The notes below the pieces were generated by a model, which was not told the origin of the DNA, did no database searches, and worked only from the letters and a program-made list of their open reading frames with translations. From contig NZ_CP114779.1 of the NCBI RefSeq assembly GCF_027359375.1, forward strand, positions 558,001 through 622,000: 64,000 nt of DNA, given 5' to 3'. The first letter of the stretch is position 1; every line of letters begins with the position of its first letter. This document shows positions 36,154 through 55,725 of the stretch, piece after piece. Source of the DNA: Prochlorococcus marinus str. MIT 0919 (GTDB lineage Bacteria > Cyanobacteriota > Cyanobacteriia > PCC-6307 > Cyanobiaceae). The translations under genes and the position numbers were made by a program.

Positions 36154-37230
36154 ATGACGATAGCTGTTGGTGGCGCCCAAGAAAGAGGATGGTTCGACGT
36201 CCTTGATGACTGGCTTAAGCGCGACCGCTTCGTATTTGTTGGTTGGTCTGGTCTTCTACTTTTCCCTACTGCCTATTTGGCAATAGGAGGGTGGTTTTTA
36301 GGCACAACCTTTGTCACTTCCTGGTACACCCATGGTGTAGCCAGCTCTTATCTGGAAGGTTGTAATTTCCTTACAGCTGCTGTTAGTACCCCTGGAGACG
36401 CCATGGGGCATAGTCTCCTATTCCTATGGGGACCAGAGGCCCAAGGCAGTCTTGTTCGTTGGCTGCAACTTGGTGGACTATGGAATTTCGTAGCTCTTCA
36501 TGGAATATTTAGCCTTATTGGCTTCATGCTTCGTCAATTTGAAATTGCAAGACTTGTAGGAATACGTCCATACAATGCACTTGCATTTTCAGCTGTAATA
36601 GCTGTTTTTTGCGCTTGTTTCCTTATTTACCCTTTAGGACAGCACAGTTGGTTCTTTGCTCCTTCTTTTGGGGTTGCAGCTATTTTCCGCTTTATCCTTT
36701 TTATTCAAGGTTTCCATAACATCACTCTCAACCCTTTCCACATGATGGGAGTTGCTGGGATTCTTGGAGGAGCTTTGCTTTGTGCAATTCACGGAGCTAC
36801 AGTTCAAAACACTCTTTATGAGGACACAAGCATCTATACAGGTGGCAAGGTTCAAAGTTCAACTTTTAGAGCTTTTGATCCAACTCAAGAAGAAGAGACT
36901 TATTCAATGGTTACTGCTAACCGTTTTTGGAGTCAAATCTTTGGAATTGCCTTCTCAAATAAAAGATTCCTTCATTTCTTAATGCTCTTCGTTCCTGTAA
37001 TGGGAATGTGGTGCGCAGCTATAGGCATTGTTGGGTTAGCTCTTAACCTAAGGGCCTATGACTTTGTAAGCCAAGAGATAAGAGCTGCTGAAGATCCAGA
37101 GTTTGAAACGTTTTATACCAAAAACATCCTTTTGAATGAAGGTATGAGAGCCTGGATGTCTTCTGTGGACCAGCCACACGAAAACTTTGTATTCCCTGAG
37201 GAGGTACTCCCACGTGGAAACGCCCTTTAA
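36154..37230 (+). CDS. psbD: Photosystem II D2 reaction-centre protein
   Basis: A 358-residue five-helix reaction-centre subunit that pairs with D1 and carries the pheophytin, the plastoquinone QA, part of P680 and the redox tyrosine YD. The start MTIAVGG is standard. The chlorophyll/iron ligands lie in [29 protein letters not shown] (His of P680 and of the non-heme iron region) and [14 protein letters not shown]. It is a few residues longer than the usual 352-353. It overlaps psbC by 17 bases, as in other cyanobacteria and plastids. Confidence 0.98.
37198..37204 (+). promoter_or_regulatory. psbC: psbC ribosome-binding site inside psbD
   Basis: GAGGAGG lies nine bases before the GTG at 37214 and inside the psbD coding sequence. 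It decides the psbC start in favour of GTG (VETPFN) over a longer in-frame TTG at 37187. Confidence 0.8.
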
Positions 37231-38596
37231 TAGTCTTTTAAAAGCTCCAAACCAAAGTATTGAAGAGACTGGTTATGCCTGGTATGTAGGCAACGCACGT
37301 CTAATTAATCTTTCGGGAAAACTCTTAGGAGCACATATCGCCCATACAGGTCTAATGGTCTTTTGGGCAGGAGCAATGATGCTTTACGAGGTGAGTCACT
37401 TCACCTTTGACAAGCCAATGTGGGAGCAAGGTTTAATCCTTATGCCACATGTAGCCATGTTTGGTTATGGGATTGGTGCTGGAGGCGAAGTTGTAGATGT
37501 AATGCCATATTTCCAAGCTGGTGTTGTCCACCTAATTGCCTCGGCAGTACTTGGTTTTGGTGGCATTTACCATTCACTTGCTGGACCAGAGAAATTAGAA
37601 GAAGAGTTTCCATTCTTCTCTACTGACTGGAGAGACAAAGATCAAATGACAACCATTCTTGGACGTCATTTGTGTGTACTTGGTCTTGGAGCAATAGCTT
37701 TCTCAGTTAACTGGCAGTTCCTGGGTGGTCTTTATGACACTTGGGCACCAGGTGGCGGTGAAGTTCGCTTAATTACTCCTACAACTGATCCAGGGATTAT
37801 CTTTGGATACCTTTTCCAAACACCCTGGGGTGGTGGTGGAAATATGGTAGGAGTTAATTCAGTTGAAGATATTGTTGGCGGACATTATTACCTAGGAATT
37901 ATTGAATTAATAGGTGGCCACTTTCATATGCAAACCAAACCATTTGGTTGGGCTCGAAGAGCCTTTATATGGAATGGAGAGGCCCTACTAGCCTATGCCT
38001 TAGGTGGAATCTGTGTAGCAAGTTTCTATGCATCTGTTTTTGTTTGGTTTAACAACACTGCATATCCATCTGAGTTCTATGGTCCAACTAATGCAGAAGC
38101 ATCTCAAGCACAAAGTTTTACTTTCTTAGTAAGAGACCAGCGTATTGGCGCAAATGTTGGCACCACAATGGGACCAACAGGTTTAGGTAAATACTTAATG
38201 CGTTCCCCAACTGGTGAAATCATCTTTGGTGGAGAGACAATGCGTTTTTGGGACTTTAGAGGTCCATGGCTAGAGCCTCTCAGAGGAGAGAATGGATTAA
38301 GTTTGGATAAAATCCAAAATGATATTCAGCCTTGGCAAGTACGTCGAGCAGCCGAGTATATGACACATGCTCCAAATGCTTCAATCAACTCAGTTGGTGG
38401 AATCATTACCGAGCCAAATGCAGTTAACTTCGTTAATTTGCGTCAATGGCTTGCTGCTGCTCAATTCTTCCTAGGATGGTTTACCTTTATTGGTCACCTT
38501 TGGCATGCTGGAAGAGCGAGAGCTGCTGCTGGCGGATTTGAAAAAGGTATAGATCGCAAGACTGAGCCTGCTCTATCAATGCCTGATCTAGACTAA
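37214..38596 (+). CDS. psbC: Photosystem II CP43 core antenna protein
   Basis: A 460-residue six-helix chlorophyll-binding antenna next to D1. The start is GTG at 37214, giving VETPFNSLL, with GAGGAGG nine bases upstream; an upstream TTG in the same frame is inside psbD and lacks a site. Conserved helices include [20 protein letters not shown] and [17 protein letters not shown]. The large lumenal loop E carries [20 protein letters not shown], with Glu and the nearby Arg that ligate the oxygen-evolving cluster. It overlaps psbD by 17 bases and is followed by a strong terminator. Confidence 0.98.
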
Positions 38597-38627
38597 TTTC
38601 TAGAGCTAAATAAATTAAATTGCATTT

Positions 38628-38661
38628 AAAAGCCCTCAATTAACCATTGAGGGCTTTTTTT
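38628..38661. terminator. Strong bidirectional intrinsic terminator after psbC
   Basis: AAAAGCCCTCAAT (38628-38640) is perfectly complementary to ATTGAGGGCTTTT (38646-38658) with a five-base TAACC loop, followed by a T-run on the plus strand and preceded by an A-run that serves the minus strand. It separates psbC from the convergent maf gene. Confidence 0.92.
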
Positions 38662-38687
38662 ATCTCTTAGGGAATTATTAATACATC

Positions 38688-39314
38688 TCACAACTCAAAA
38701 CCAACTTTAAAACATGAGTCTCTTAACCAAGGCAGGCTAAGTCCAATCACATTGCTATAACAACCTTCTATTGATTCAATTAACGTAGCTCCTTTACCAT
38801 CGATAGCAAATCCTCCTGCACAACAAATTGGCTCGTTAGTTTTCACATATTTCTCAATCTCTAAATCTGCAAGTTTTGCGAAATTAATTTTAGTTGTAAT
38901 AACATTAACAATCATTCCAGAATACTTTGGTGAACTGGTAGATACATTTGGTCGCATAATCAAACAATGGCCTGTATGAATGTATCCACTTTTAGAAGAC
39001 ATCTTGGATAACCTATCCATAGCTACTTTTTCAGTTTTGGGTTTCCCATAGATTTGACCATCAAACTCAAACAATGAATCGCAACAAAGTATTGCTATCT
39101 CTTTGCAATCAAAAATACTATTTTGAGTTTTGTTAGAAATTTTTGATAAAACAGCCTTAGCCTTAGCAACTGCAAGAGATTGAACCAACTCCCCAACATC
39201 AGATCCAGAAAATTGATCTTCATTAACATCACTTACAATAACCTTATGTTTTATATCAACTTGCTTGAGAAGATTTCTTCTAGCTTTTGAAGCAGAGCCA
39301 AGTATCAGCATCAT
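38688..39314 (-). CDS. maf: Maf-family nucleotide pyrophosphatase
   Basis: A 208-residue house-cleaning enzyme that hydrolyses non-canonical or methylated nucleoside triphosphates such as dTTP, UTP or m7GTP. The N-terminal motif GSASKARRNLLKQ (usual S-x-SPRR-x-x-L) has Ala-Ser-Lys-Ala in place of the SPRR serine-proline, a mild deviation. Then come CCDSLFEFDGQIYGKPK (normally ADTVV..G.I.GKP), SGYIHTGHCLI and GCYSNVIGLSLPWL. Catalytic acid and lysine positions appear kept. Convergent with psbC across the strong terminator. Confidence 0.85.
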   Translation of the reverse strand: MMLILGSASKARRNLLKQVDIKHKVIVSDVNEDQFSGSDVGELVQSLAVAKAKAVLSKISNKTQNSIFDCKEIAILCCDSLFEFDGQIYGKPKTEKVAMDRLSKMSSKSGYIHTGHCLIMRPNVSTSSPKYSGMIVNVITTKINFAKLADLEIEKYVKTNEPICCAGGFAIDGKGATLIESIEGCYSNVIGLSLPWLRDSCFKVGFEL

Positions 39315-39381
39315 GAAATCAGAATTAAAATCAATCTACTCTTAAATTTTTCAAGCTTAGAAGCTATTTTTTTTAGAAGCA

Positions 39382-39756
39382 ATGGAATTAATTGATAAAC
39401 ACATTTTAAAACGGACAAGTAGAGCAATTAAATGCCTTGCTCTAAATTCCAATTTTTACAAAGACGTCGAATCAAATGGCTTAACTGCAAAGAATGTTTT
39501 TGAAATGAGAGCTAGGTATTCCAATAAAAGCTTGCATTGGTTCAAGGATTCTGAATGCATTGAAAGTGCATTTAGATGGTTAATAACAATTGGGGTTCTA
39601 AGGCGTGAGGTTGACGGACAAGGCTTAACATCAAAAGTTCGACTAACACCATTAGGAAGGCAATTTCTTCAGATGAACCCCGATCTTCCAAATCAACAAG
39701 CCAACTTATACGAAAGGTTTAGAAACTGGTTGTTTAGGAAACTAATTCTTCAATGA
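39382..39756 (+). CDS. Conserved-looking hypothetical protein upstream of cobQ
   Basis: A 124-residue soluble protein. The middle, [20 protein letters not shown] followed by [19 protein letters not shown], reads like a winged-helix segment, but without a clear recognition helix I cannot call it a regulator. I recall proteins of this type as cyanobacterial conserved hypotheticals next to cobalamin genes, without certainty. Its last codon overlaps the cobQ start by four bases (ATGA), so the two are co-translated. Confidence 0.65.
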
Positions 39757-41267
39757 TAATAAATTCAACCTCAAAACCTTTAATGGTGCTTGGTACGTCA
39801 AGTGGTGCTGGCAAATCTTTAATGGTGACAGCTATTTGCAGAGTTTTAAGTAACCAAGGGGAAAGACCTATCCCATTTAAAGGCCAAAATATGAGCAACA
39901 ATGCATGGGTCGATAATAATGGGGGGGAAATGGCTTACTCCCAAGCATTGCAAGCATGGGCAGCGAGGGTTGATCCGATATGTTCGATGAACCCTATCCT
40001 TCTAAAACCTCAAGGTGATTGCATTAGCGAAATAATTCATCTTGGAGAAAGCGTAGGAATTACAAAAGCCAAAGATTACTACCAAAACTGGTTTAATTTA
40101 GGATGGGAAGCAATTCAAAAAGGACTGAAAATATTAGACAGTGACTTCCCTAATGGGAGATTGATTATAGAAGGTGCGGGAAGTCCAGTAGAGGTAAATC
40201 TTAAACATAGAGACCTTACAAATTTACGTATAGCAAAATATCTAAATGCGAATTGCCTTTTAATAGCGGACATAGAGCGAGGCGGTGTTTTTGCACAATT
40301 AATAGGTACTCTTGCACTCCTAAGTCCTGAGGAGAGGGAATTAGTAAAAGGAATAATAATTAATCGTTTCAGAGGAGATAGCTCATTATTTGACTCAGGT
40401 CGAGAATGGATTGAAAAAGAAACTAATATTCCTGTTTTAGGTGTAATGCCTTGGTTAAACGAAATTTTCCCTCCAGAAGACTCATTAGACCTACTCGAAC
40501 GAAAACCTACTAAACCATTTTCAGAGATAGAAATAGCGATAATTCAATTGCCTTCCTTAAGTAATTTCTCAGATTTAGATCCGTTAGAATCAGAAGATAG
40601 TGTGAAATTAAAATGGGTCAAACCAGGCAATTCACTAGGGAATCCTGATGCAGTGATTATCCCTGGGAGTAAACAAACAATTAAAGATCTTCAAAAGCTA
40701 AATACAAGTAATCTTGCGACAGAAATAAAAGAGTTTGCAAAAAAAGGTGGTGAAGTTTTTGGAATATGTGGTGGTTTACAGATGTTAGGGGAAACACTTG
40801 AAGACCCCTATTATATAGAAAATCTAAAAAGTGATAATGCCAAAAATCAATACGAAGGTCTGAAACTACTTCCTATTAAGACAATATTTAAAAAAAGTAA
40901 GTCTCTTTTAAAACGTGAAGTATTAGCTCTTTGGCCTCAGAAATGTATAATTTCTGGCTTCGAACTTCATCACGGCTTTACTCAATCAATTGACTCATTT
41001 TCTGAAGAGTTACAACCATTTAGCGAGGACTCACTACTGGGTTGGGTAAGTAATAGAGATGGGACAGGAATAGTTAGTGGAACGTATCTTCATGGAATCT
41101 TTGAGAATGGCGAATGGAGGCGGTATTGGATTAATCAAATAAGAAGAAAAAAGGGACTTAAACCATTAGCCATTCATCATAAAAACTATATTATTGAGAG
41201 AGATGAATTAATAAATCGCCTATCACATTCGTTTCAAAAGCATATTAATCTTCAAAGGATTCTTTAA
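39753..41267 (+). CDS. cobQ: Cobyric acid synthase
   Basis: A 504-residue glutamine amidotransferase that amidates four side chains of adenosylcobyrinic a,c-diamide in (pseudo)cobalamin synthesis. The N-terminal synthetase has the P-loop [17 protein letters not shown] and NMSNNAWV. The C-terminal triad glutaminase has Cys in [11 protein letters not shown] and His in [27 protein letters not shown] is conserved between them. It overlaps the upstream gene by four bases; a small ferredoxin-like gene begins two bases after it, making a three-gene operon. Confidence 0.95.
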
Positions 41268-41558: not shown

Positions 41559-42704
41559 TTAATTTTTACTAAAAACTTCTGATGCAATAATTTCCCAAGA
41601 AAATTTATCTGATGAAGACTTCATTTTTACATAATTCTCCAAATAATTATCATAATTAGATTGATCAACCTCAGGGATTTTATAAATCTTTTCTAAGTCC
41701 TGCGAATTAAGAGCTGGTACATTTAAGAAAGTAGAAAATTTGACAATAGATTTAAAGTAAATACTTTTTTTACTTAGCTCATTTGGTATCAAAAGTATTA
41801 TTGGTTTCATAAATAAAACTGCTAGCTGAATAGCAGTTGAGCAATGGGCAATAACAAGACTTGATTGAGCAATCGCCTTAACTGTATCCAAATTAGTTAT
41901 TGGAATCTTATATAGTGATGATGATTTTGAATAATTAGCCCTAGGGTGTAACTTGATCAATGGATTTAATGCCAACTTCTTTGCAAGAAAATTTAGGTTA
42001 TTGGAGATTTCTTGAAAGTATTTTGCCTCACTTACAGGCGGCTCCACTTTTAGGTTAAATAAATCGCAGTGGCAGGGGAAATCTTCATCTAAAAACAAAA
42101 TCGTATTAGAAGTTTCTATCGAATTATTTTTTAATATGAATTTTTTATAATTATCAAAATCTAAATTGTGTACCTTTACTACTGTTTTATTAGATTTAGT
42201 AAATTTATTAAAGTCAAAAGATCCCCCAACAGCGATCCTATCTGTTGAGGCAATCTTCCAAGGTAATGACAAGAAATAGGTGACAGCAGACTTGGGTAAA
42301 TTTAAAGTTTTCCTGCAGAAAGATTGGTTTCTTGGGAGGCTAGGATACGGGTAAGATGTTAGCTTATACTGGATAATTTTTGCTTTCAATTTAATAGATA
42401 ATCTAATAAGTACTCTCTTTAAATAATTTTCAATTGAAAATCCCCCCAAAATATCAACACACCAATCAGGCGAGAATTCAAAAACTTTTTTTATAAAACT
42501 TGATAAGGAGTAACAGCTATAAACCACTGGGGATTTAAATCTTATCTGATTACCATTAATATAATTTTCAAATCTTGCGTTCAAGAAGGGAGTGCAATCT
42601 ATGACCAATACAGAATAACCAATAGATAATAACTCTCCTATGCCAAAACGAATATAATCCCTTTCTGTAAATGGCGATAGTACACAAAAACAAATTCTTT
42701 TCAT
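41559..42704 (-). CDS. Possible GT-B glycosyltransferase with sialyltransferase-like motifs
   Basis: A 381-residue protein, no close family recognised. The C-terminal half looks like a GT-B fold acting on a nucleotide sugar: ILFLDEDFP gives a DED at 206-208, KLHPRANYSK gives HP at 253-254, and VIAHCSTAIQLA gives an HCST at 287-290 followed by a hydrophobic strand. This D/E-D/E then HP then S/T order is the one described for bacterial CMP-sialate transferases (GT38, GT52, GT80), and HP...S/T also occurs in other capsule transferases. It diverges from fcl at the island edge, next to the nonulosonate genes. The specific assignment is a hypothesis. Confidence 0.55.
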   Translation of the reverse strand: MKRICFCVLSPFTERDYIRFGIGELLSIGYSVLVIDCTPFLNARFENYINGNQIRFKSPVVYSCYSLSSFIKKVFEFSPDWCVDILGGFSIENYLKRVLIRLSIKLKAKIIQYKLTSYPYPSLPRNQSFCRKTLNLPKSAVTYFLSLPWKIASTDRIAVGGSFDFNKFTKSNKTVVKVHNLDFDNYKKFILKNNSIETSNTILFLDEDFPCHCDLFNLKVEPPVSEAKYFQEISNNLNFLAKKLALNPLIKLHPRANYSKSSSLYKIPITNLDTVKAIAQSSLVIAHCSTAIQLAVLFMKPIILLIPNELSKKSIYFKSIVKFSTFLNVPALNSQDLEKIYKIPEVDQSNYDNYLENYVKMKSSSDKFSWEIIASEVFSKN

Positions 42705-46009: not shown

Positions 46010-47449
46010 ATGGAATTTCTAAAGTCATTAGTTGCGCAAAGTGATATGACATTAAAAGAAGTAATGATAATTATTTCTGAAAATAAGCGTGGAATATGTT
46101 TCATTTTAGATAATGAAATACTTGTTGGGTTAGTAACTGATGGTGATATCAGAAGGGCAATTGTTAGTGGGTCAATTTTAAAAGAACCTATATCTAAAAT
46201 AATGGTAAGAGATTTTATATCCCTTCCGGTTGAAAGTGATGAGAGGTTAATTAGGGAAACATTCAAGCCAAACTTAAAACTAATACCTTTAATTGATAAC
46301 AATGGGTGTCTAGTAGGCGCTGCAGATCAACTTGGCTCTCATAGGATACCCTTGTTAGAGCCTTTCCTTAAAGGCATGGAATCGCAATATGTTCTTGACT
46401 GCTTGGAAACCAATTGGATCTCTTCGCAAGGGGAATATGTAAGAAGATTTGAGCAGCAGTTTAAAGTAATGCATTCTGAAATGGAATCCTTAGCTGTATG
46501 CAATGGAACCATTGCATTACACCTTGCTCTTTTAGCTCTTGGTATCAAATCAGGGGACGAAGTAATTGTTCCGGATATTACTTTTGCAGCTACTGCAAAT
46601 TCAGTTATCTATTGTGGAGCGAAGCCTGTATTTTGCGAAATAAATAAGAAAACTTGGTGCATAGAGCCTAACGAAATAAGAAAGCTGATTACAACTAATA
46701 CTAAAGCCATTATACCTGTCCATTTATACGGTCAAGTTTGTAATATGAACGAGATTATTTCAATTGCAAAGGAAAATAAATTGCTTTTAATCGAAGATTG
46801 TGCCGAAGCATTAGGTAGTAAAAGGGATGGCAGGCCTGTTGGTACATTCGGAGATGCTGCAACATTTAGTTTTTATGGGAACAAGACCATTTCAACTGGG
46901 GAAGGAGGGATGGTTCTTTTTAAAGATAAAAGTATCGCCAGCGAAGCTAGAATTATTCGTGATCATGGAATGAAACCCGACAAAAGGTATTGGCATGAAG
47001 TGGTTGGGTATAATTATAGGTTAACAAATTTACAAGCCGCTTTAGGTGTTGCTCAGTTTGAAAATCTAGATAATATTTTAGCTCGGAAGAAAAAACTGTT
47101 AACTGAATACCAAAATAAACTAATGGGAATTAAAGGTATAAAAATGCTACCTTATATAGAAAAGAAAATTTACCATTCAAATTGGTTATATACATTGATA
47201 CTAGAAGAGAGTATTGATAGAGATAGACTTATTAGAAACTCAAGAGGAAGAGGAGTAGATATACGCCCTACATTCTATCCACTTCACAAAATGCCTCCAT
47301 ATGAAAAATATAGAAAATCATCAGGTTTAGAAATTAGCAATAATATCGCTTCAAATGGTATTTGCCTACCATCCTCGGCAAGCCTAAGAAGTGATGAGTT
47401 GATCTATGTTGTAGATATATTGAAAGATTCAATTTTGGAAATGTTTTAA
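46010..47449 (+). CDS. CBS-pair plus perosamine-synthase-like aminotransferase fusion
   Basis: A 479-residue fusion. Residues 1-113 are a CBS-domain pair (GICFILDNEILVGLVTDGDI, then LIPLIDNNGCLVGAADQ), normally a nucleotide sensor. From about 114 it is a DegT-family PLP aminotransferase with D263 (IEDCAEALGS) and Schiff-base K292 (YGNKTISTGEGG). The stretches YVLDCLETNWISSQGEYVRR, HLYGQVCNMNEI and DKRYWHEVVGYNYRLTN match GDP-perosamine synthases, which aminate the Gmd product at C4. LegC, the legionaminate-pathway aminotransferase, is a close alternative. In legionaminate clusters a CBS pair is known fused to the nucleotidyltransferase PtmE/LegX, so the domain has moved partner here. Confidence 0.85.
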   Translation: MEFLKSLVAQSDMTLKEVMIIISENKRGICFILDNEILVGLVTDGDIRRAIVSGSILKEPISKIMVRDFISLPVESDERLIRETFKPNLKLIPLIDNNGCLVGAADQLGSHRIPLLEPFLKGMESQYVLDCLETNWISSQGEYVRRFEQQFKVMHSEMESLAVCNGTIALHLALLALGIKSGDEVIVPDITFAATANSVIYCGAKPVFCEINKKTWCIEPNEIRKLITTNTKAIIPVHLYGQVCNMNEIISIAKENKLLLIEDCAEALGSKRDGRPVGTFGDAATFSFYGNKTISTGEGGMVLFKDKSIASEARIIRDHGMKPDKRYWHEVVGYNYRLTNLQAALGVAQFENLDNILARKKKLLTEYQNKLMGIKGIKMLPYIEKKIYHSNWLYTLILEESIDRDRLIRNSRGRGVDIRPTFYPLHKMPPYEKYRKSSGLEISNNIASNGICLPSSASLRSDELIYVVDILKDSILEMF

Positions 47450-47471: not shown

Positions 47472-48173
47472 TTAATTGCTTAGATTATTAAGTAATTGAT
47501 ACTCTGCAAAGTGAAAATCTTCAATACTATCAATATCGACCGGATATCTATCTTTACTTTTATAAAATTTTGTTGAAGCATGAAAAAATGTTCTTCTGCC
47601 TTTTAAAATATTTAATTCAGAAAAATAAAAATTTCCATTAATGAAATAATATCCGCCTGGATAGGATTGCCTGTTTACTCGGCCGTTAGGATCTACGATA
47701 TAACTCCATGAATCCGTTGTATCATCTAATTTTACACATTCACAAGGGTGCTCCCTCATTTCACTTACGGATACTAATGTTTTATAGTTCTGATTAACAA
47801 ATAATTCCATTGATTTATTAATCTCATTTAAACTTCTTATAGGGTAAGTTGGCTGTAAAAGCAAAATTGATTTAAGGGAAGGGTTTAAATTATCTATTAT
47901 CCAATCGCTAGCATGAATGAGTGTATCTATTACAGAAGAATTGTCAGAAGCAAGGTAAGAAGGTCTTTGCAAACATTCAACACCATACTCTTCTCCTCTC
48001 TTCAGGATATCTAAAGAGTCACTAGTTAAAACTATATTGCTTACACAACTAAGTTTCTTCGCAAGCTCTATAGAATAATCTACCAAAGGCTTTCCATAGA
48101 GTTTCTTGAGATTCTTTCCTGGTAGACCTTTTGAGCCTGATCTTGCAGGAATAATTACTGCTAATTTATGCAT
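47472..48173 (-). CDS. neuA: Acylneuraminate-type cytidylyltransferase (NeuA/LegF-like)
   Basis: A 233-residue enzyme that activates a nonulosonic acid with CTP to CMP-sugar. The opening IIPARSGSKGLPGKNLKKL is the CTP-binding loop, followed by SIELAKKLSCVSNIVLTSDS and the ILLLQPTYPIRSLNEI block with the QPT signature. SVSEMREHPCE and RYPVDIDSIEDFHFAE provide the substrate and metal-binding acids. It is of the NeuA/LegF type rather than PseF (compare the gene at 52958-53656). It runs opposite to the fcl-gmd operon, behind the PhyH-type gene on the same strand. Confidence 0.88.
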   Translation of the reverse strand: MHKLAVIIPARSGSKGLPGKNLKKLYGKPLVDYSIELAKKLSCVSNIVLTSDSLDILKRGEEYGVECLQRPSYLASDNSSVIDTLIHASDWIIDNLNPSLKSILLLQPTYPIRSLNEINKSMELFVNQNYKTLVSVSEMREHPCECVKLDDTTDSWSYIVDPNGRVNRQSYPGGYYFINGNFYFSELNILKGRRTFFHASTKFYKSKDRYPVDIDSIEDFHFAEYQLLNNLSN

Positions 48174-48201: not shown

Positions 48202-48996
48202 TCAAGGGTTTGCTTTCAAACGGTTAAGTTTGATCATTTTTTCATACCATAGATCATGACCTTCTTTCTTAACTTCTGAAATACCATGAAGAGTAAGTCT
48301 TACAACAAATCCACGCTCAGCTGAAGGAGGGACAGGATCTGCAAAGTGTAAGCTTCTTGAATGATGAATAGTGCAGTCACCTGGCCTATAATTCGGCTCA
48401 AATGTATCAAAATTGATAACATTTGGATTTGATATTGTCAATGAAAAGCCTTTGGCTTCGGAAGGCTTATGTGCAAAATCTATATCGGATGAATTAATAT
48501 AATATTTCAGACCTCCTTTAGAAGCATATTCTTCATTAATAGGTATATAAAAAGTCAAACCAGATCCATTTATTAGACCATAATAAGCGTTGTCTTGATG
48601 GGGGGGTATGGCAGAGCCCAATGGACAACGGGAATGTATTTCTAGGCTATTTAAATAAACTTTTTGTCCAAGAAAAAAAGTTGCAATTTCGAAAATATTA
48701 GAATTAATGAATTTACCGAACAATTCCCTGGATTCATTCAAAGGGTATTCAAAATATTTAATGTATTTACGACCATCTATCTCATCAACTGAAAGCCCCT
48801 TTTTATCAGAAGAATACTTCGCAATAATATCACTTTCATTATCGACCAAATAATTTAGAGCTTTCGAGCAAATACTTTTATCTACAAGCTGGCGAAGCTG
48901 TATTGCGCTAGTCTTATTAAAGATAGTTTTTGCGTGTGCTGAAAATATTTCGCCTTGACTGAATATTTGATTAGGTTTCTGATTTACCTGGTTCAT
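48202..48996 (-). CDS. Phytanoyl-CoA dioxygenase (PhyH)-family enzyme
   Basis: A 264-residue 2OG-Fe(II) oxygenase of the PhyH superfamily. The iron ligands are HxD in IPPHQDNAYYG and the distal histidine in CTIHHSRSLHFADP, with the 2OG arginine in ERGFVVRLTLHG. PhyH-type enzymes hydroxylate lipids, antibiotics or sugars. It lies 28 bases upstream of neuA and on the same strand, so it may hydroxylate the nonulosonate, another island sugar or a lipid anchor. None of these is shown by the sequence. Confidence 0.85.
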   Translation of the reverse strand: MNQVNQKPNQIFSQGEIFSAHAKTIFNKTSAIQLRQLVDKSICSKALNYLVDNESDIIAKYSSDKKGLSVDEIDGRKYIKYFEYPLNESRELFGKFINSNIFEIATFFLGQKVYLNSLEIHSRCPLGSAIPPHQDNAYYGLINGSGLTFYIPINEEYASKGGLKYYINSSDIDFAHKPSEAKGFSLTISNPNVINFDTFEPNYRPGDCTIHHSRSLHFADPVPPSAERGFVVRLTLHGISEVKKEGHDLWYEKMIKLNRLKANP

Positions 48997-49311: not shown

Positions 49312-50166
49312 ATGAGTTCATATTATCCAATTCCGTGTGATTTCTATATAAATCCTGGTTCAAGCAAATCAAAGGTCTCTTCATCAATAACTCTAATTAA
49401 TATGGCAAGTAATCGCATTGAAATGAATTATGAAATTAAAAGCAGTGATATACACTATTGTATATACTATATAAAAGATTATTGCTGGATAAAATATAGT
49501 CAAATTAATTGTGCTTATGGAGATTATATAGAGATAAAGCGTGGTGATCTTAATTTGCCAGAAACAACCATGGCAGTAGTTGTAAGATCTAATAAAAGTG
49601 ACAACCCCGATAGATGCTTAATTCTCCCGGAGCCATATTCTTCTAGAGTTGACAAAAGTCCAATAGCAGAGAGGGCTTCTTACAACTTCACCTTTGGAAG
49701 CTCAACATCCTCTTATCAAGGAGAGTATCCCCACATGCTTGCTAAAGCTATGAAAAGTTCATTTTTAACTTTTGACACTCTAAGGCAAGACAATGTTGAA
49801 GGTTGTAGTTCATTTATGCTTCTTATGAATCTAAAGGTAGATGCTAGAGCTAGGGACGAATATGAAGTATCAATATTTAGAAGTTCAGACCGAAAAGAAT
49901 TAGACAACCTAAAAGTTAAATGTAATTCATTTATTTCTTACAAACTGCCTGATAATCTAAAGGCAACCAGTAATGCTAGCAATGATAATTTGTTTATTAT
50001 ATGCAATAAGGCAACATTTATTCCTATATTTATCACTGCTGGAATAAGCAATTTAAAATATCAAATCACAGTTGAACATACTCATCCTCCTAGTGAACTT
50101 TTTTGGCCGTACAAAAATAATTTATCGATCAAAAAGCTAAGAAGCAATTGGGTCAAAGGAATATGA
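49312..50166 (+). CDS. Unrecognised island protein A, 284 aa
   Basis: No family recognised. It is soluble, with no signal peptide or membrane helix, and rich in aromatic and beta-type sequence: PCDFYINPGSSKSKVSSSIT, DYCWIKYSQINCAYGDYIEI, then a central SYNFTFGSSTSSYQGEYPHM. The repeated strand pattern suggests a beta-sandwich. It overlaps the next gene by four bases (ATGA), and the central block resembles one in that protein, so the two may be distant paralogues. The likely setting is glycan or cell-surface work, from context only. Confidence 0.65.
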   Translation: MSSYYPIPCDFYINPGSSKSKVSSSITLINMASNRIEMNYEIKSSDIHYCIYYIKDYCWIKYSQINCAYGDYIEIKRGDLNLPETTMAVVVRSNKSDNPDRCLILPEPYSSRVDKSPIAERASYNFTFGSSTSSYQGEYPHMLAKAMKSSFLTFDTLRQDNVEGCSSFMLLMNLKVDARARDEYEVSIFRSSDRKELDNLKVKCNSFISYKLPDNLKATSNASNDNLFIICNKATFIPIFITAGISNLKYQITVEHTHPPSELFWPYKNNLSIKKLRSNWVKGI

Positions 50167-50972
50167 ATACAATTATGGAGTTTTTGACTACTAGAAAAAG
50201 AAAACTTGTAAATAGATTTCTAGAGAGAGATTATGAGCCATATAACTTAATGTCACGAATATTACCTAGAAAATCTTATAGTGATTTCTTTATATATTCG
50301 AGAGGGTGCTATATGAACACTTTTATTGCTGAGAATATCTACGCACTATTCGAAGGGAGACAAGTAGAAGTTTGTCATATGCTTAGATTTTACGACAAAT
50401 ATGGCAAGCAAATAAAATCGCATAAAATAATTGATAGTAATTACTTTTCAAGGATGGAACTGCCTTCTATAAAAGAAAAGAGTGAATATATATCATTTAC
50501 TCATGAATCATATAAAATTAAAAATAGGAATCTGACTTTTAGGAATGAAAGTAATATTCATAGCCAACATAGAGGATACTCTGTATATACGAAAATTAAT
50601 GGTAGCTTAGGTAGTGTCGTACATGGCAATTTTGGTGGCATATATCCACCTAATTTATTTCTAAGTGCAGCAAAGCAGAGAAATAAGCTTTATTGCTACA
50701 CACCAATGTATGTTTTCAATAAGTTTAACCATTACCACCTCGTATTTAATAATCCCACCAAAATAAATTTGAAAGTAGATTTAAAAGAAAATTATAATAG
50801 AGATTCAACTATAATATCTAGTAAATCCATACCACCTTTTGGTACAGATTACTTTGATATTATAAACTATGAAGGTACTATTTCATTTTACTCAAAGCTT
50901 CCGATATGCAGGTGCTTAATATTTAAGAATCCAAGTCTTGAAGAAAATGACTTCGATGTCTTTCATTCGTAA
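50163..50972 (+). CDS. Unrecognised island protein B, 269 aa
   Basis: No family recognised. ATG at 50163 overlaps the previous stop (ATGA) and has AAAGGAAT upstream; a TTG at 50148 is less likely. Sequence is aromatic and beta-rich with basic N-terminus (TRKRKLVNRFLERDYEPYN), then RGCYMNTFIAENIYALFEGR and YSVYTKINGSLGSVVHGNFG. That last block sits in the same relative place as YNFTFGSSTSSYQGEYP in protein A and both are followed by an NLF/HML helix and a beta-rich C-terminus, hence possible paralogy. It overlaps the methyltransferase gene that follows, so three genes form one unit. Confidence 0.65.
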   Translation: MNTIMEFLTTRKRKLVNRFLERDYEPYNLMSRILPRKSYSDFFIYSRGCYMNTFIAENIYALFEGRQVEVCHMLRFYDKYGKQIKSHKIIDSNYFSRMELPSIKEKSEYISFTHESYKIKNRNLTFRNESNIHSQHRGYSVYTKINGSLGSVVHGNFGGIYPPNLFLSAAKQRNKLYCYTPMYVFNKFNHYHLVFNNPTKINLKVDLKENYNRDSTIISSKSIPPFGTDYFDIINYEGTISFYSKLPICRCLIFKNPSLEENDFDVFHS

Positions 50973-51837
50973 AAATTCAAATGCTAGAATCCTTATAAAA
51001 GAATCAGGCATGATGGCTTTTAAGCTACTAAAATTAATTAAAAATCCTCTAAAAATAATTAATCTGATAAAATTAGAATATCTAGAGTTTAGGTGTAATA
51101 CAAACAAAAGAATAGATTCCCAAACTAAAATATATAAAGAACTTGGCCTGCAAAGGGATAAGAGTATTAAGCATTTAAATGTAATACTTAAACAATTAGG
51201 ATTAAATAAATACGATGAGGACTATGGTATGTACTCAGAACATTTAATTATATTCGCAGGAATAGCGCTAGAGAAGAAGAATATAGATTCTGTACTTGAA
51301 ATTGGAACATATGATGCTATTAGCACAACAATTTTGTCTGCATTATTTGAGAACTCAAAAATATATACAATAGACTTGAAAAATAATGACCCTATTTATA
51401 AGCAGACATATAGTAGAGAAGATAGCGAAATAAGAAATAGATTTAATATTGCCAGGGATAAGATTATAGCTTCCAGAAATAATATAGAGTTTATCCAAAT
51501 GAATTCCTTGGCAATAATGCAAACCACACTTCGCAAGAAAAAGTTTGATCTAATATGGATAGATGGCGCACATGGATACCCTTTTGTCTGTTCAGATATA
51601 ATGAATTCAATTGCTTTAGCACATCAATCTACCATTATTATGTGTGATGATATTTGGGAGAGTGTTGATAAAAGTGATCAAATATATAAATCTATAGCAA
51701 GTTGGGAAACATTGAATTGCTTAAAATATGCTGAACTAATAGATTTATATTTTTTCTTGAAAAGAGTTGGAAAGATTCACCTGAATAATAAAAAGTTTAT
51801 AGCTTACTTTAAACTTAAAGACCTCTCAACTATATAA
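50947..51837 (+). CDS. Class I SAM-dependent methyltransferase (FkbM/Methyltransf_24-like)
   Basis: About 296 residues from the ATG at 50947. After an amphipathic basic N-terminal region the methyltransferase core shows motif I SVLEIGTYDAISTTIL, the acidic loop KIYTIDLKNNDP, and KKFDLIWIDGAHGYPFVCSD, the D-G-A/S-H signature of the Methyltransf_24 group that often methylates sugars or small secreted compounds, with MCDDIWES after it. It starts inside the end of protein B (26-base overlap), so the three-gene unit is coupled. The substrate is probably a glycan or related island product. Confidence 0.8.
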   Translation: MTSMSFIRKNSNARILIKESGMMAFKLLKLIKNPLKIINLIKLEYLEFRCNTNKRIDSQTKIYKELGLQRDKSIKHLNVILKQLGLNKYDEDYGMYSEHLIIFAGIALEKKNIDSVLEIGTYDAISTTILSALFENSKIYTIDLKNNDPIYKQTYSREDSEIRNRFNIARDKIIASRNNIEFIQMNSLAIMQTTLRKKKFDLIWIDGAHGYPFVCSDIMNSIALAHQSTIIMCDDIWESVDKSDQIYKSIASWETLNCLKYAELIDLYFFLKRVGKIHLNNKKFIAYFKLKDLSTI

Positions 51838-51879: not shown

Positions 51880-52881
51880 CTAACTTAAATTTTCCCATTT
51901 AATAAATTTACCTCTAATTATTGATTTAATAACCTTGCGTCCTAATATTTGATTTAGTTGATCTATTGATATGCCATCTATGGCTGGCCGAATAGCATAG
52001 ATATTTTCATAATTTATATAATCTCCGATCTTTAAATCTTTCTTAGCTACAATTCCTTTTTTAGATATCTTAGACATACCAATTTCACTTTCTCTACATT
52101 TTTTACTTTCTGAGCCAAGAATATTTTCTACTCTTCTTAACTCCTCCACATATGATTTCATTTCCTTAATATCAGATGATGCGTAATGATCTGGTCCTTG
52201 GTCTGATCGGCATAAAGTAAAGTGTCTTTCAAAGAATCGTACTCCAATTGATGCACAAATAATCGCAGATGTAATTCCTTCGCTATGATCTGAAAAGCCA
52301 ATCTCATTATTAGGTAAACTATTTTTCATAGTGGTTATACATCTTGCATTAATATCAGAGTCAGGGCATGGGTAAGCTGAAACACAATGAAGGATAGTAG
52401 GGTTAATGCTTGAATAATTGACCAAGCAATCTTGGACCTCATTAATAGATGACATTCCAGTTGCTAATATAATTTTTTTTGTATTGAATGAATTCAAGCA
52501 TTTATGAATAAACTGATCCCCAAGATCTGCTGATGCAGTTTTAAACATTCGAACACCTATTTTATAAGCTTCTTCAGCAGATAGAGGATCATAAGGTGTG
52601 GTAATAAAATCTATCTTCTTATGATTTGCATGCTGTAATGCTTTTTCAAGCTTATCATCATTAAATTCCAATCGCTTAATCATTTCATAATGTGATTCCG
52701 ACTCTGAGCTGGACCTAAGTTGGTAATTAACCTTGGGTGCGTTTAAAGAAACTAACCTATTAGCATAGAAACTTTGAAATTTAACAGCGTTACAACCACA
52801 TTCAACAGCGGCGTCGATTAATTTTATTGCTTTTTCAAGTGATCCATCATGATTAACTCCAATTTCCGCAACTATATACAT
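51880..52881 (-). CDS. neuB: NeuB/LegI-type nonulosonic acid synthase
   Basis: A 333-residue enzyme that condenses phosphoenolpyruvate with a 6-carbon amino sugar to a 9-carbon sialic-acid-like sugar. The barrel opens with IVAEIGVNHDGSLEKAI, then CNAVKFQSFYANRLVS, STP-like ITTPYDPLS and ATGMSSINEVQDC. The metal site lies in ERHFTLCRSDQGPDHYASS and a C-terminal SAF domain (about 270-333, KKDLKIGDYINYENIYAIRP) follows. It is closer in these motifs to LegI/NeuB than to PseI, which is encoded at 54670. CMP activation could be by the NeuA-type enzyme at 47472. Confidence 0.9.
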   Translation of the reverse strand: MYIVAEIGVNHDGSLEKAIKLIDAAVECGCNAVKFQSFYANRLVSLNAPKVNYQLRSSSESESHYEMIKRLEFNDDKLEKALQHANHKKIDFITTPYDPLSAEEAYKIGVRMFKTASADLGDQFIHKCLNSFNTKKIILATGMSSINEVQDCLVNYSSINPTILHCVSAYPCPDSDINARCITTMKNSLPNNEIGFSDHSEGITSAIICASIGVRFFERHFTLCRSDQGPDHYASSDIKEMKSYVEELRRVENILGSESKKCRESEIGMSKISKKGIVAKKDLKIGDYINYENIYAIRPAIDGISIDQLNQILGRKVIKSIIRGKFIKWENLS

Positions 52882-52957: not shown

Positions 52958-53656
52958 TCATTCTGCTTTCTTGCTGATTACTTCATGTAATACTTCAGCT
53001 CTAAGTAAATCCTCCATTGTATCTATATCCTGCACCCGCCATCTTGGAAGAAGTAAAGGGTATCCATTGTTAAAAATATTAGCTGTTTGCTTCCACGCTG
53101 TAGGGCTCGCCCAGTAAAACTGACCAGCATCATGAAAAGATTCTGTTAAATCCTGACTTAGTACGTTGTAATTCTCAGGATAAAACATACTAGAGCGTCC
53201 ATCAGACCCTATCTTTATAGACCTCTGAATAGGGAAAGGGAAAGAGGTGGCTGTAAAAACAAATGAAGTTAAATCTATAGTGTTCAACAATTCAAAAGCT
53301 TTATAAAGATCTGATGATTTAACGAATGGTGCTGTAGCTAAAAGACAACACACTGAATTAATACTAAAAGAATTGCTTTCAAGCCATTCAATAGCCTGTC
53401 TAATGACAGGCTGAATACCTATTTGATCAGTAGCAAGATGAGACGGTCTTAAAAATGGAACTTCTGCTCCTTGTTGAAGTGCTATTTCTGCAATTTCCTT
53501 GTCATCCGTACTCACAATAACTTTTTGGAAGCATTTTGAATCTATAGCGGCCTTTATTGACCATGAGATCATAGGCTTCCCTCGAAAATTAATTACATTT
53601 TTCCTGGGGATGCGCTTGCTTCCCCCTCGGGCTGGAATTAAAGCGATATTCATCAA
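52958..53656 (-). CDS. pseF: Pseudaminic acid cytidylyltransferase
   Basis: A 232-residue CMP-sugar synthetase of the PseF type. It has LIPARGGSKRIPRKNVINFR, then MISWSIKAAIDSKCFQKVIV, STDDKEIAEIALQQGAEVPF and, in the C-terminal half, YPENYNVLSQDLTESFHDAG followed by QFYWA, a block I know from PseF rather than NeuA. It should make CMP-pseudaminic acid from the PseI product. It lies 76 bases upstream of neuB and on the same strand, so the two are one transcript even though PseI is on the opposite strand. Confidence 0.9.
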   Translation of the reverse strand: MMNIALIPARGGSKRIPRKNVINFRGKPMISWSIKAAIDSKCFQKVIVSTDDKEIAEIALQQGAEVPFLRPSHLATDQIGIQPVIRQAIEWLESNSFSINSVCCLLATAPFVKSSDLYKAFELLNTIDLTSFVFTATSFPFPIQRSIKIGSDGRSSMFYPENYNVLSQDLTESFHDAGQFYWASPTAWKQTANIFNNGYPLLLPRWRVQDIDTMEDLLRAEVLHEVISKKAE

Positions 53657-54669: not shown

Positions 54670-55725
54670 ATGTTTGAAATTAATGGTAAGGAGATAGGCC
54701 TGGAAAAACCTCCTTACATCATTGCCGAGTTATCTGCTAATCATAATGGCTCGATTGTAAAAGCAAAGGAAACGATTCGATATGCAAAGGATTGCGGGGC
54801 TGATGCAATAAAATTACAAACATATAATGCCGATTCTATGACAATAAATTGTGACATGGAAGATTTTATAATAAAGGAAGGTTTATGGGATGGGTACAAA
54901 CTTTTTGATTTATATGAAGAGGCAAGCACTCCTTATGATTGGCATCATGAATTATTTAATTTCGCAAAAGAAATAGGCATAACAATATTTTCAACTCCTT
55001 TTGACGAGGAAGCTGCTGATCTTCTAGAGAACTTGGATGTACCAGCATATAAAATTGCATCTTTTGAGTTAACTGACCTTCAATTAATTGAATATGTCGC
55101 AAAAAAAGGAAAGCCAATGCTTATTTCTACTGGCATGGCAAGCCTTGAAGAAATTTCTGAAGCTATAGATACGGCTTTTTTGGCAGGCTGTAAAGATATT
55201 CTTTTATTTCATTGTATAAGTAGCTATCCTACGCCTACTTCTGAAGCAAATATTAAAACAATTGATTTTTTAAGAGAGAAGTTTAACGTTGAAATAGGTC
55301 TTTCTGATCACACCAGATCTAACACTTCTGCTTTGGCAGCTATCTCTTTAGGAGCTGTAGCTATAGAGAAGCATTTTATAATTAGTAGGGAAGATAAGGG
55401 GCCAGATAGTGATTTTTCTATAGAGCCTAAGGAACTAAAAGAACTTGTACTTAAAACAAAGTCATGCTGGGAGGCTTTAGGAACTAAAGAATTGAAAAGA
55501 TCACCTCTTGAAATTAAAAATAAAATCTTTAGAAGGTCATTGTATTTTGTTAAAGATATAAAAGCAGGCGAAGTTATTACTAAAGATCATGTGAGAAGAA
55601 TTCGACCAGGATATGGTTTGGCTCCAAAATACTTAGATCAAATTATTAATAAAACAGTTTCTGTAGACCTTGTACGTGGTGATCGTGTTTCATGGGATGT
55701 TATAAACAAATCAAATTTTAATTGA
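54670..55725 (+). CDS. pseI: Pseudaminic acid synthase
   Basis: A 351-residue enzyme that joins phosphoenolpyruvate to 2,4-diacetamido-2,4,6-trideoxy-L-altrose to give pseudaminic acid. PseI-type blocks: IIAELSANHNGSIVKAKETI, CGADAIKLQTYNADSMTIN, EDFIIKEGLWDGYKLFDLYE, FSTPFDEEAADLLENLDVPA and YKIASFELTDLQLIEYVAKK. Metal and catalytic residues are in KHFIISREDKGPDSDFS, and a SAF domain closes the protein. It is clearly a different subtype from the NeuB-type enzyme at 51880. The corresponding early genes pseB, pseC and pseG are not seen in the window. Confidence 0.93.
   Translation: MFEINGKEIGLEKPPYIIAELSANHNGSIVKAKETIRYAKDCGADAIKLQTYNADSMTINCDMEDFIIKEGLWDGYKLFDLYEEASTPYDWHHELFNFAKEIGITIFSTPFDEEAADLLENLDVPAYKIASFELTDLQLIEYVAKKGKPMLISTGMASLEEISEAIDTAFLAGCKDILLFHCISSYPTPTSEANIKTIDFLREKFNVEIGLSDHTRSNTSALAAISLGAVAIEKHFIISREDKGPDSDFSIEPKELKELVLKTKSCWEALGTKELKRSPLEIKNKIFRRSLYFVKDIKAGEVITKDHVRRIRPGYGLAPKYLDQIINKTVSVDLVRGDRVSWDVINKSNFN

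Follow-up and report, generated by a model that had tools for sequence, protein, structure and literature searches.

What are two proteins of no recognised family doing beside a methyltransferase gene in a glycan island, and are they related to each other? These questions are raised by three genes, here called A, B and C, in the window, which is the whole stretch of 64,000 nucleotides that was analysed. It belongs to a genome of one contig (1.72 Mb), and the nearest named relative found in homologue searches was a Prochlorococcus. The locus has the following layout:

49312..50166, + strand: gene A, 284 amino acids, ATG 49312, TGA 50166
50163..50166, + strand: stop-start overlap ATGA of A and B, the ATG of B lying inside the ATGA of A
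50163..50972, + strand: gene B, 269 amino acids, ATG 50163, TAA 50972
50947..51837, + strand: gene C, 296 amino acids, class I SAM methyltransferase, Methyltransf_24 (PF13578)

Gene C matches PF13578 with 44.5 bits, the Pfam cut-off being 26.3. The overlaps described in the first-pass annotation, four bases between A and B and 26 bases between B and C, were both seen in the sequence, the latter on the assumption that C starts at ATG 50947; alternative starts of C are TTG 50938 and ATG 50956. The ATGA overlap suggests that A and B are translationally coupled.

A conserved gene pair

Searches of Pfam, NCBIfam, PHROGs and PDB sequences yielded no match for A or B, neither to an enzyme family nor to any other, and the initial view of both as proteins without a recognised family was thereby upheld. 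Weak matches to charged multivesicular body protein, transferrin receptor, DUF2443, Mu Gam and AstA were absent from relatives and were dropped.

In protein searches of 201 genomes of the family, A and B were found in an identical set of seven, adjacent every time. A scan of prokaryote genomes with an alignment of A yielded more Prochlorococcus, Cyanobium, one member of the Emcibacteraceae and alphaproteobacteria of the SAR11 type, whereas a scan of genome contigs with a single B sequence gave no match. B was nevertheless found, adjoining A, in all ten genomes from the alignment scan which were searched for it. Within the SAR11 order, A is present in ten of 162 genomes, as compared to one of 337 drawn from the class of SAR11.

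Gene pairing and conservation were established computationally, like the methyltransferase neighbours and the best-match fold treated below. In all 22 distinct loci, from Prochlorococcus, Synechococcus/Cyanobium, SAR11 and the one Emcibacteraceae, A is followed by B on one strand, mostly with the four-base ATGA and otherwise with an overlap that reaches about 19 bases at most or with almost no gap between them, and this order and near-zero spacing exceed chance. Pairwise divergence of A was correlated with that of B (r = 0.94, none of 2000 permutations being as high), which indicates that the two travel together. An A match in G095 and a second B match in G003 were short with internal stops, and were set aside as chance or remnants. 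A viral origin was also rejected, two scans of viral contigs having found no relative, phage records containing no A, and viral fold matches being to generic beta proteins. A plasmid search with B gave no match.

Domains, predicted fold and probable relationship of A and B

AlphaFold models of A and B were built separately, each from an alignment of seven sequences. The model of A was good (pLDDT 79.5) and that of B fair (pLDDT 68.8), with a weak N-terminus and weak middle loops. Both are nearly all beta, in agreement with the beta-rich character assigned to them earlier. The alignments and models gave these features:

Protein A, domains: beta domain at residues ~1-120, beta domain at ~145-261, then a C-terminal helix (from alignment and model)
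Protein A, invariant residues: W59, R121, Q136, N173, N205, P238, E255-H256, P259-P260
49678..49731, + strand: central block of A, residues 123-140, ending SSYQGEYP; last strand of domain 1, stopping at invariant Q136
Protein B, domains: basic low-confidence N-terminus, beta domain at ~38-161, beta domain at ~178-269
Protein B, invariant residues: S40-D41, F43, H114, Y139, H154-G155-N156, N197, S244, R250, D265, H268
50577..50636, + strand: central block of B, residues 139-158, with GSVVHGNFG; last strand of domain 1, stopping at invariant H154

These residues are kept across the 22 pairs at identities as low as 15%. A similar central block in the same relative position had been pointed out in the two proteins. 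The position proved to be correct, since in each model the block contains the strand with which domain 1 closes, but a likeness in sequence was not found by BLASTP or by whole-protein profile comparison. In each of the four domains the final strand of the model stops at an invariant residue (Q136 and H256 of A, H154 and H268 of B), a quasi-symmetry which would be expected of a four-domain heteromer with equivalent sites, as we infer for A and B.

For the second domain of A and the first of B, Foldseek and VIA-align 2 gave TM1070 (1NC7) and the Anabaena sensory rhodopsin transducer (ASRT) as the best solved matches. For residues 145-261 of A, 1NC7/ASRT came top in VIA-align 2 with Z of 6.1 and then 4.2 (best 107 residues, 3.2 Å), and Foldseek gave 1NC7 a probability of 0.99 (E 0.007). 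For residues 38-161 of B, 1NC7/ASRT was again top with Z of 8.1, 6.0 and 5.9 (best 100 residues, 3.2 Å). Both regions are thus predicted, at moderate Z, to form an eight-stranded beta-sandwich like that of TM1070. Values of 6-8 may stem from a common beta arrangement and are still moderate, but the convergence of separate models of A and B on one structure outweighs either Z alone. The N-terminal domain of A had no fold assignment of its own.

ASRT (PF07100), with TM1070 and Anabaena sensory rhodopsin transducer (2II7), belongs to the ASRAH superfamily, whose domains occur as tetramers, dyads or tetrads and have been proposed to bind sugars (De Souza, Iyer and Aravind 2009, PMC2739507). Its asparagine, at the end of strand 2, is present in the second domains of A (N173) and B (N197) in 22 of 22 sequences each and in the first domain of B (N58) in 19 of 22, and more weakly in domain 1 of A (N30, 16 of 22). 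In contrast, the tryptophan with which strand 1 starts is absent, with Phe or Tyr at best in the alignments, and so is the ASRT signature SHE..C..N. PF07100 gave no match for A or B up to E 10, none up to E 1 among seven members of each alignment, and none in the window genome. A and B are therefore not to be filed under PF07100, and they are not among the three ASRAH families described in 2009 (PMC2739507). They also differ in having two domains per protein, in forming a two-gene pair and in their methyltransferase neighbours, while sugar-metabolism neighbours are common to both, as would be several domains per complex if A and B assemble. The earlier description of the two as unknown thus holds for the family level but not for the superfamily, to which a resemblance is seen. 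None of the A and B proteins examined has a strongly hydrophobic N-terminus, from which a cytoplasmic location of both is probable; stand-alone ASRT proteins are alike in this respect, A and B having no signal-peptide-like stretch.

The suggestion that A and B might be paralogous was followed by profile-profile comparison. BLASTP and whole-protein hhalign of A against B were both negative. Domain profiles, with 22 rows per family and ten pairs tried at single-comparison E-values of about 1e-3, gave borderline matches. The second domain of A matched the first of B (E 0.0009, score 26.4, 40 column-shuffled controls reaching at most 16.7), the first domain of B matched the second (E 0.0014, score 23.7, 40 column-shuffled controls at most 14.0), and the second domain of B matched ASRT (E 0.002, score 22.9, 40 shuffled controls at most 15.9), the last with the alignment register off by one at the asparagine. 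All three scores were also above the reversed control. FkbM decoy profiles scored up to 18.4 with the second domain of A and at most 11.9 with the domains of B. The alignment of the second domain of A with the first of B pairs N173 with N58; neither of these two domains had a significant profile match to ASRT. Together with the shared best fold, the matches between domains suggest a distant paralogy of A and B, with a tandem ASRAH-like architecture in each, and their paralogy and relationship to ASRAH are probable. That they are instead unrelated beta proteins in one island, the fold match being that of a generic beta-sandwich, would agree with the negative whole-protein comparison and the moderate Z values; it is rather improbable considering the identical top solved structure, the equivalent residues at the strand ends and the controls with shuffled columns and decoy profiles.

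The invariant His/Glu/Asp pattern would fit an enzyme as well, and this counts against a binding function. A and B could together make up a heterodimeric enzyme of a kind not described so far, which perhaps depends on a metal, acts on a surface sugar before or after methylation and uses invariant residues of EHTHPP, YQGE, HGN and D-x-x-H as catalytic or metal ligands. Such an enzyme is the main rival to a binding pair, being suggested by the many invariant polar residues over the 22 pairs, the H-x-H pattern in A, the sugar-enzyme setting and the fact that A and B are never apart. It is nevertheless unlikely, as the closest solved structure has a binding fold for which catalysis is not known, enzyme family searches were without match, and one divergent sequence has Asn in place of the second His of H-x-H.

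Methyltransferase neighbours and genomic setting

A, B and C had been described as a tight three-gene unit. This is what the window contains, but as a fixed unit it does not extend to the relatives, where the conserved part is A-B. The commonest neighbour is FkbM (PF05050), a partner with no homology to A or B, which adjoins the pair in ten loci (L017, L018, L021, L026, L027, L036, L037, L059, L060, L061), upstream, downstream or on the opposite strand. With ten of only 31 FkbM matches in the 22 genomes with A-B lying beside one gene pair, and the sole FkbM found in five genomes among them, the adjacency is by our own estimate far above chance, the expectation being well under one. A KEPET motif is present in all but one of these ten neighbours. 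Four more KEPET copies in these genomes are unlinked to A-B (G667, G669, G673, G1083). KEPET-motif FkbM genes located elsewhere in genomes with A-B but no adjacent KEPET copy are those of L067, L068, L089 and L093. The FkbM neighbours do not form a single clade, the tree requiring seven label changes, a number that many shuffles did not exceed. Adjacency has therefore been gained or lost repeatedly, and enrichment is confined to the KEPET motif group.

The window genome gave no FkbM match. There and in G078 no FkbM lies beside A-B, and a related Methyltransf_24 gene fills that place, the homologue of C which follows A-B in G078 (L016:6715-7626) being 47% identical. With a gene of Methyltransf_24/TylF type upstream of A-B in L028, such a neighbour occurs in three loci. 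No adjacent methyltransferase was found in L019, L020, L029, L031, L033, L035, L062 and L063.

That FkbM recurs in two phyla, on both sides of the pair and on both strands, and Methyltransf_24 in other loci, would also be accounted for if A-B were a subunit dedicated to the methyltransferase itself, as an accessory, as a chaperone or for specificity, and needed no sugar ligand. One partner would then be required by two different methyltransferase families, and a KEPET FkbM was not found in some of the genomes with A-B, which makes this quite improbable.

The island in the window contains two NeuB genes, two of CMP-sugar synthetase type, PIG-L and DegT. The two NeuB-family synthases (51880-52881 and 54670-55725) differ from each other and, with the nearby CTP_transf_3 genes (47472-48173 and 52958-53656), suggest two nonulosonate pathways. 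A CBS domain is fused to a DegT-type aminotransferase at 46010-47449. The product of 48202-48996 has a phytanoyl-CoA dioxygenase-type look yet no Pfam match, and 41559-42704 has no Pfam match either. The genes psbD-psbC-maf-cobQ flank the island in the window (36154-41267) and directly flank A-B-C of G078 (L016, 9249-14634), and mark an insertion point common to both. In SAR11, a KDO8P/DAHP-type synthase, a CBS protein and an HpcH aldolase lie beside A-B in L033, and with short-chain dehydrogenases these genes characterise L033, L034, L035 and L059, clusters which may encode an uncharacterised sugar-acid pathway. Glycan islands are the usual setting of A-B. That it always lies in them, as had been considered, is wrong, since the freshwater Synechococcus/Cyanobium copies (L019, L020, L029) reside in ordinary chromosomal DNA and have no methyltransferase beside them.

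The C-terminal domain of Wzt is a carbohydrate-binding beta-sandwich and offers an analogy. A-B could in the same manner recognise chains that end in a methylated residue or in KDO, for export by an ABC system, and the methyltransferase and KDO/nonulosonate surroundings would suit this. With Wzt_C in only three of the 22 genomes with A-B, all freshwater picocyanobacteria, and A-B not seen to be linked to an exporter, such a role is very improbable.

Proposed role of the pair

The preferred reading, to which a probability of roughly 0.4 is given, takes A and B as paralogues with tandem ASRAH-like domains which assemble into an intracellular heteromer, bind a sugar or glycan and serve together with a surface-glycan methyltransferase. 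Complex, ligand and role with the methyltransferase are what we infer, and they would be connected as follows. A and B would be distant paralogues, each with two tandem beta-sandwich domains like that of ASRAH, a domain for the binding of sugars or small molecules, which upon coupled translation assemble inside the cell so that four domains mimic the ASRT homotetramer. The heteromer would bind a sugar or glycan intermediate of a surface polysaccharide, putatively at the conserved Q/H/E/D/N residues where the last strands end, and might present this ligand to the adjacent sugar methyltransferase, mostly FkbM and here Methyltransf_24, or regulate it. A stronger version is proposed only tentatively and is somewhat doubtful: that A-B, as it occurs in picocyanobacteria and SAR11, is an obligate heteromeric tandem-ASRAH-like pair, previously undescribed, by which the substrate is chosen for a surface-glycan methyltransferase that is itself interchangeable. 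Literature searches that combined FkbM and the islands of Prochlorococcus or SAR11 yielded nothing on the pair.

In Prochlorococcus and SAR11, phage attachment and grazing are believed to be governed by surface glycans, yet most genes of the surface-glycan islands are unnamed. A-B is a pair of probably related proteins, neither covered by a database family, which occurs in open-ocean Prochlorococcus and SAR11 and probably serves in recognition or modification of a surface sugar. If the preferred reading is true, it would add a paired two-domain form to ASRAH, whose members have so far been described as sensors encoded by single genes or as proteins that are secreted. As a two-gene family of abundant ocean groups, linked to specific methyltransferases and with a predicted sugar-binding fold, A-B offers a testable handle on glycan modification.
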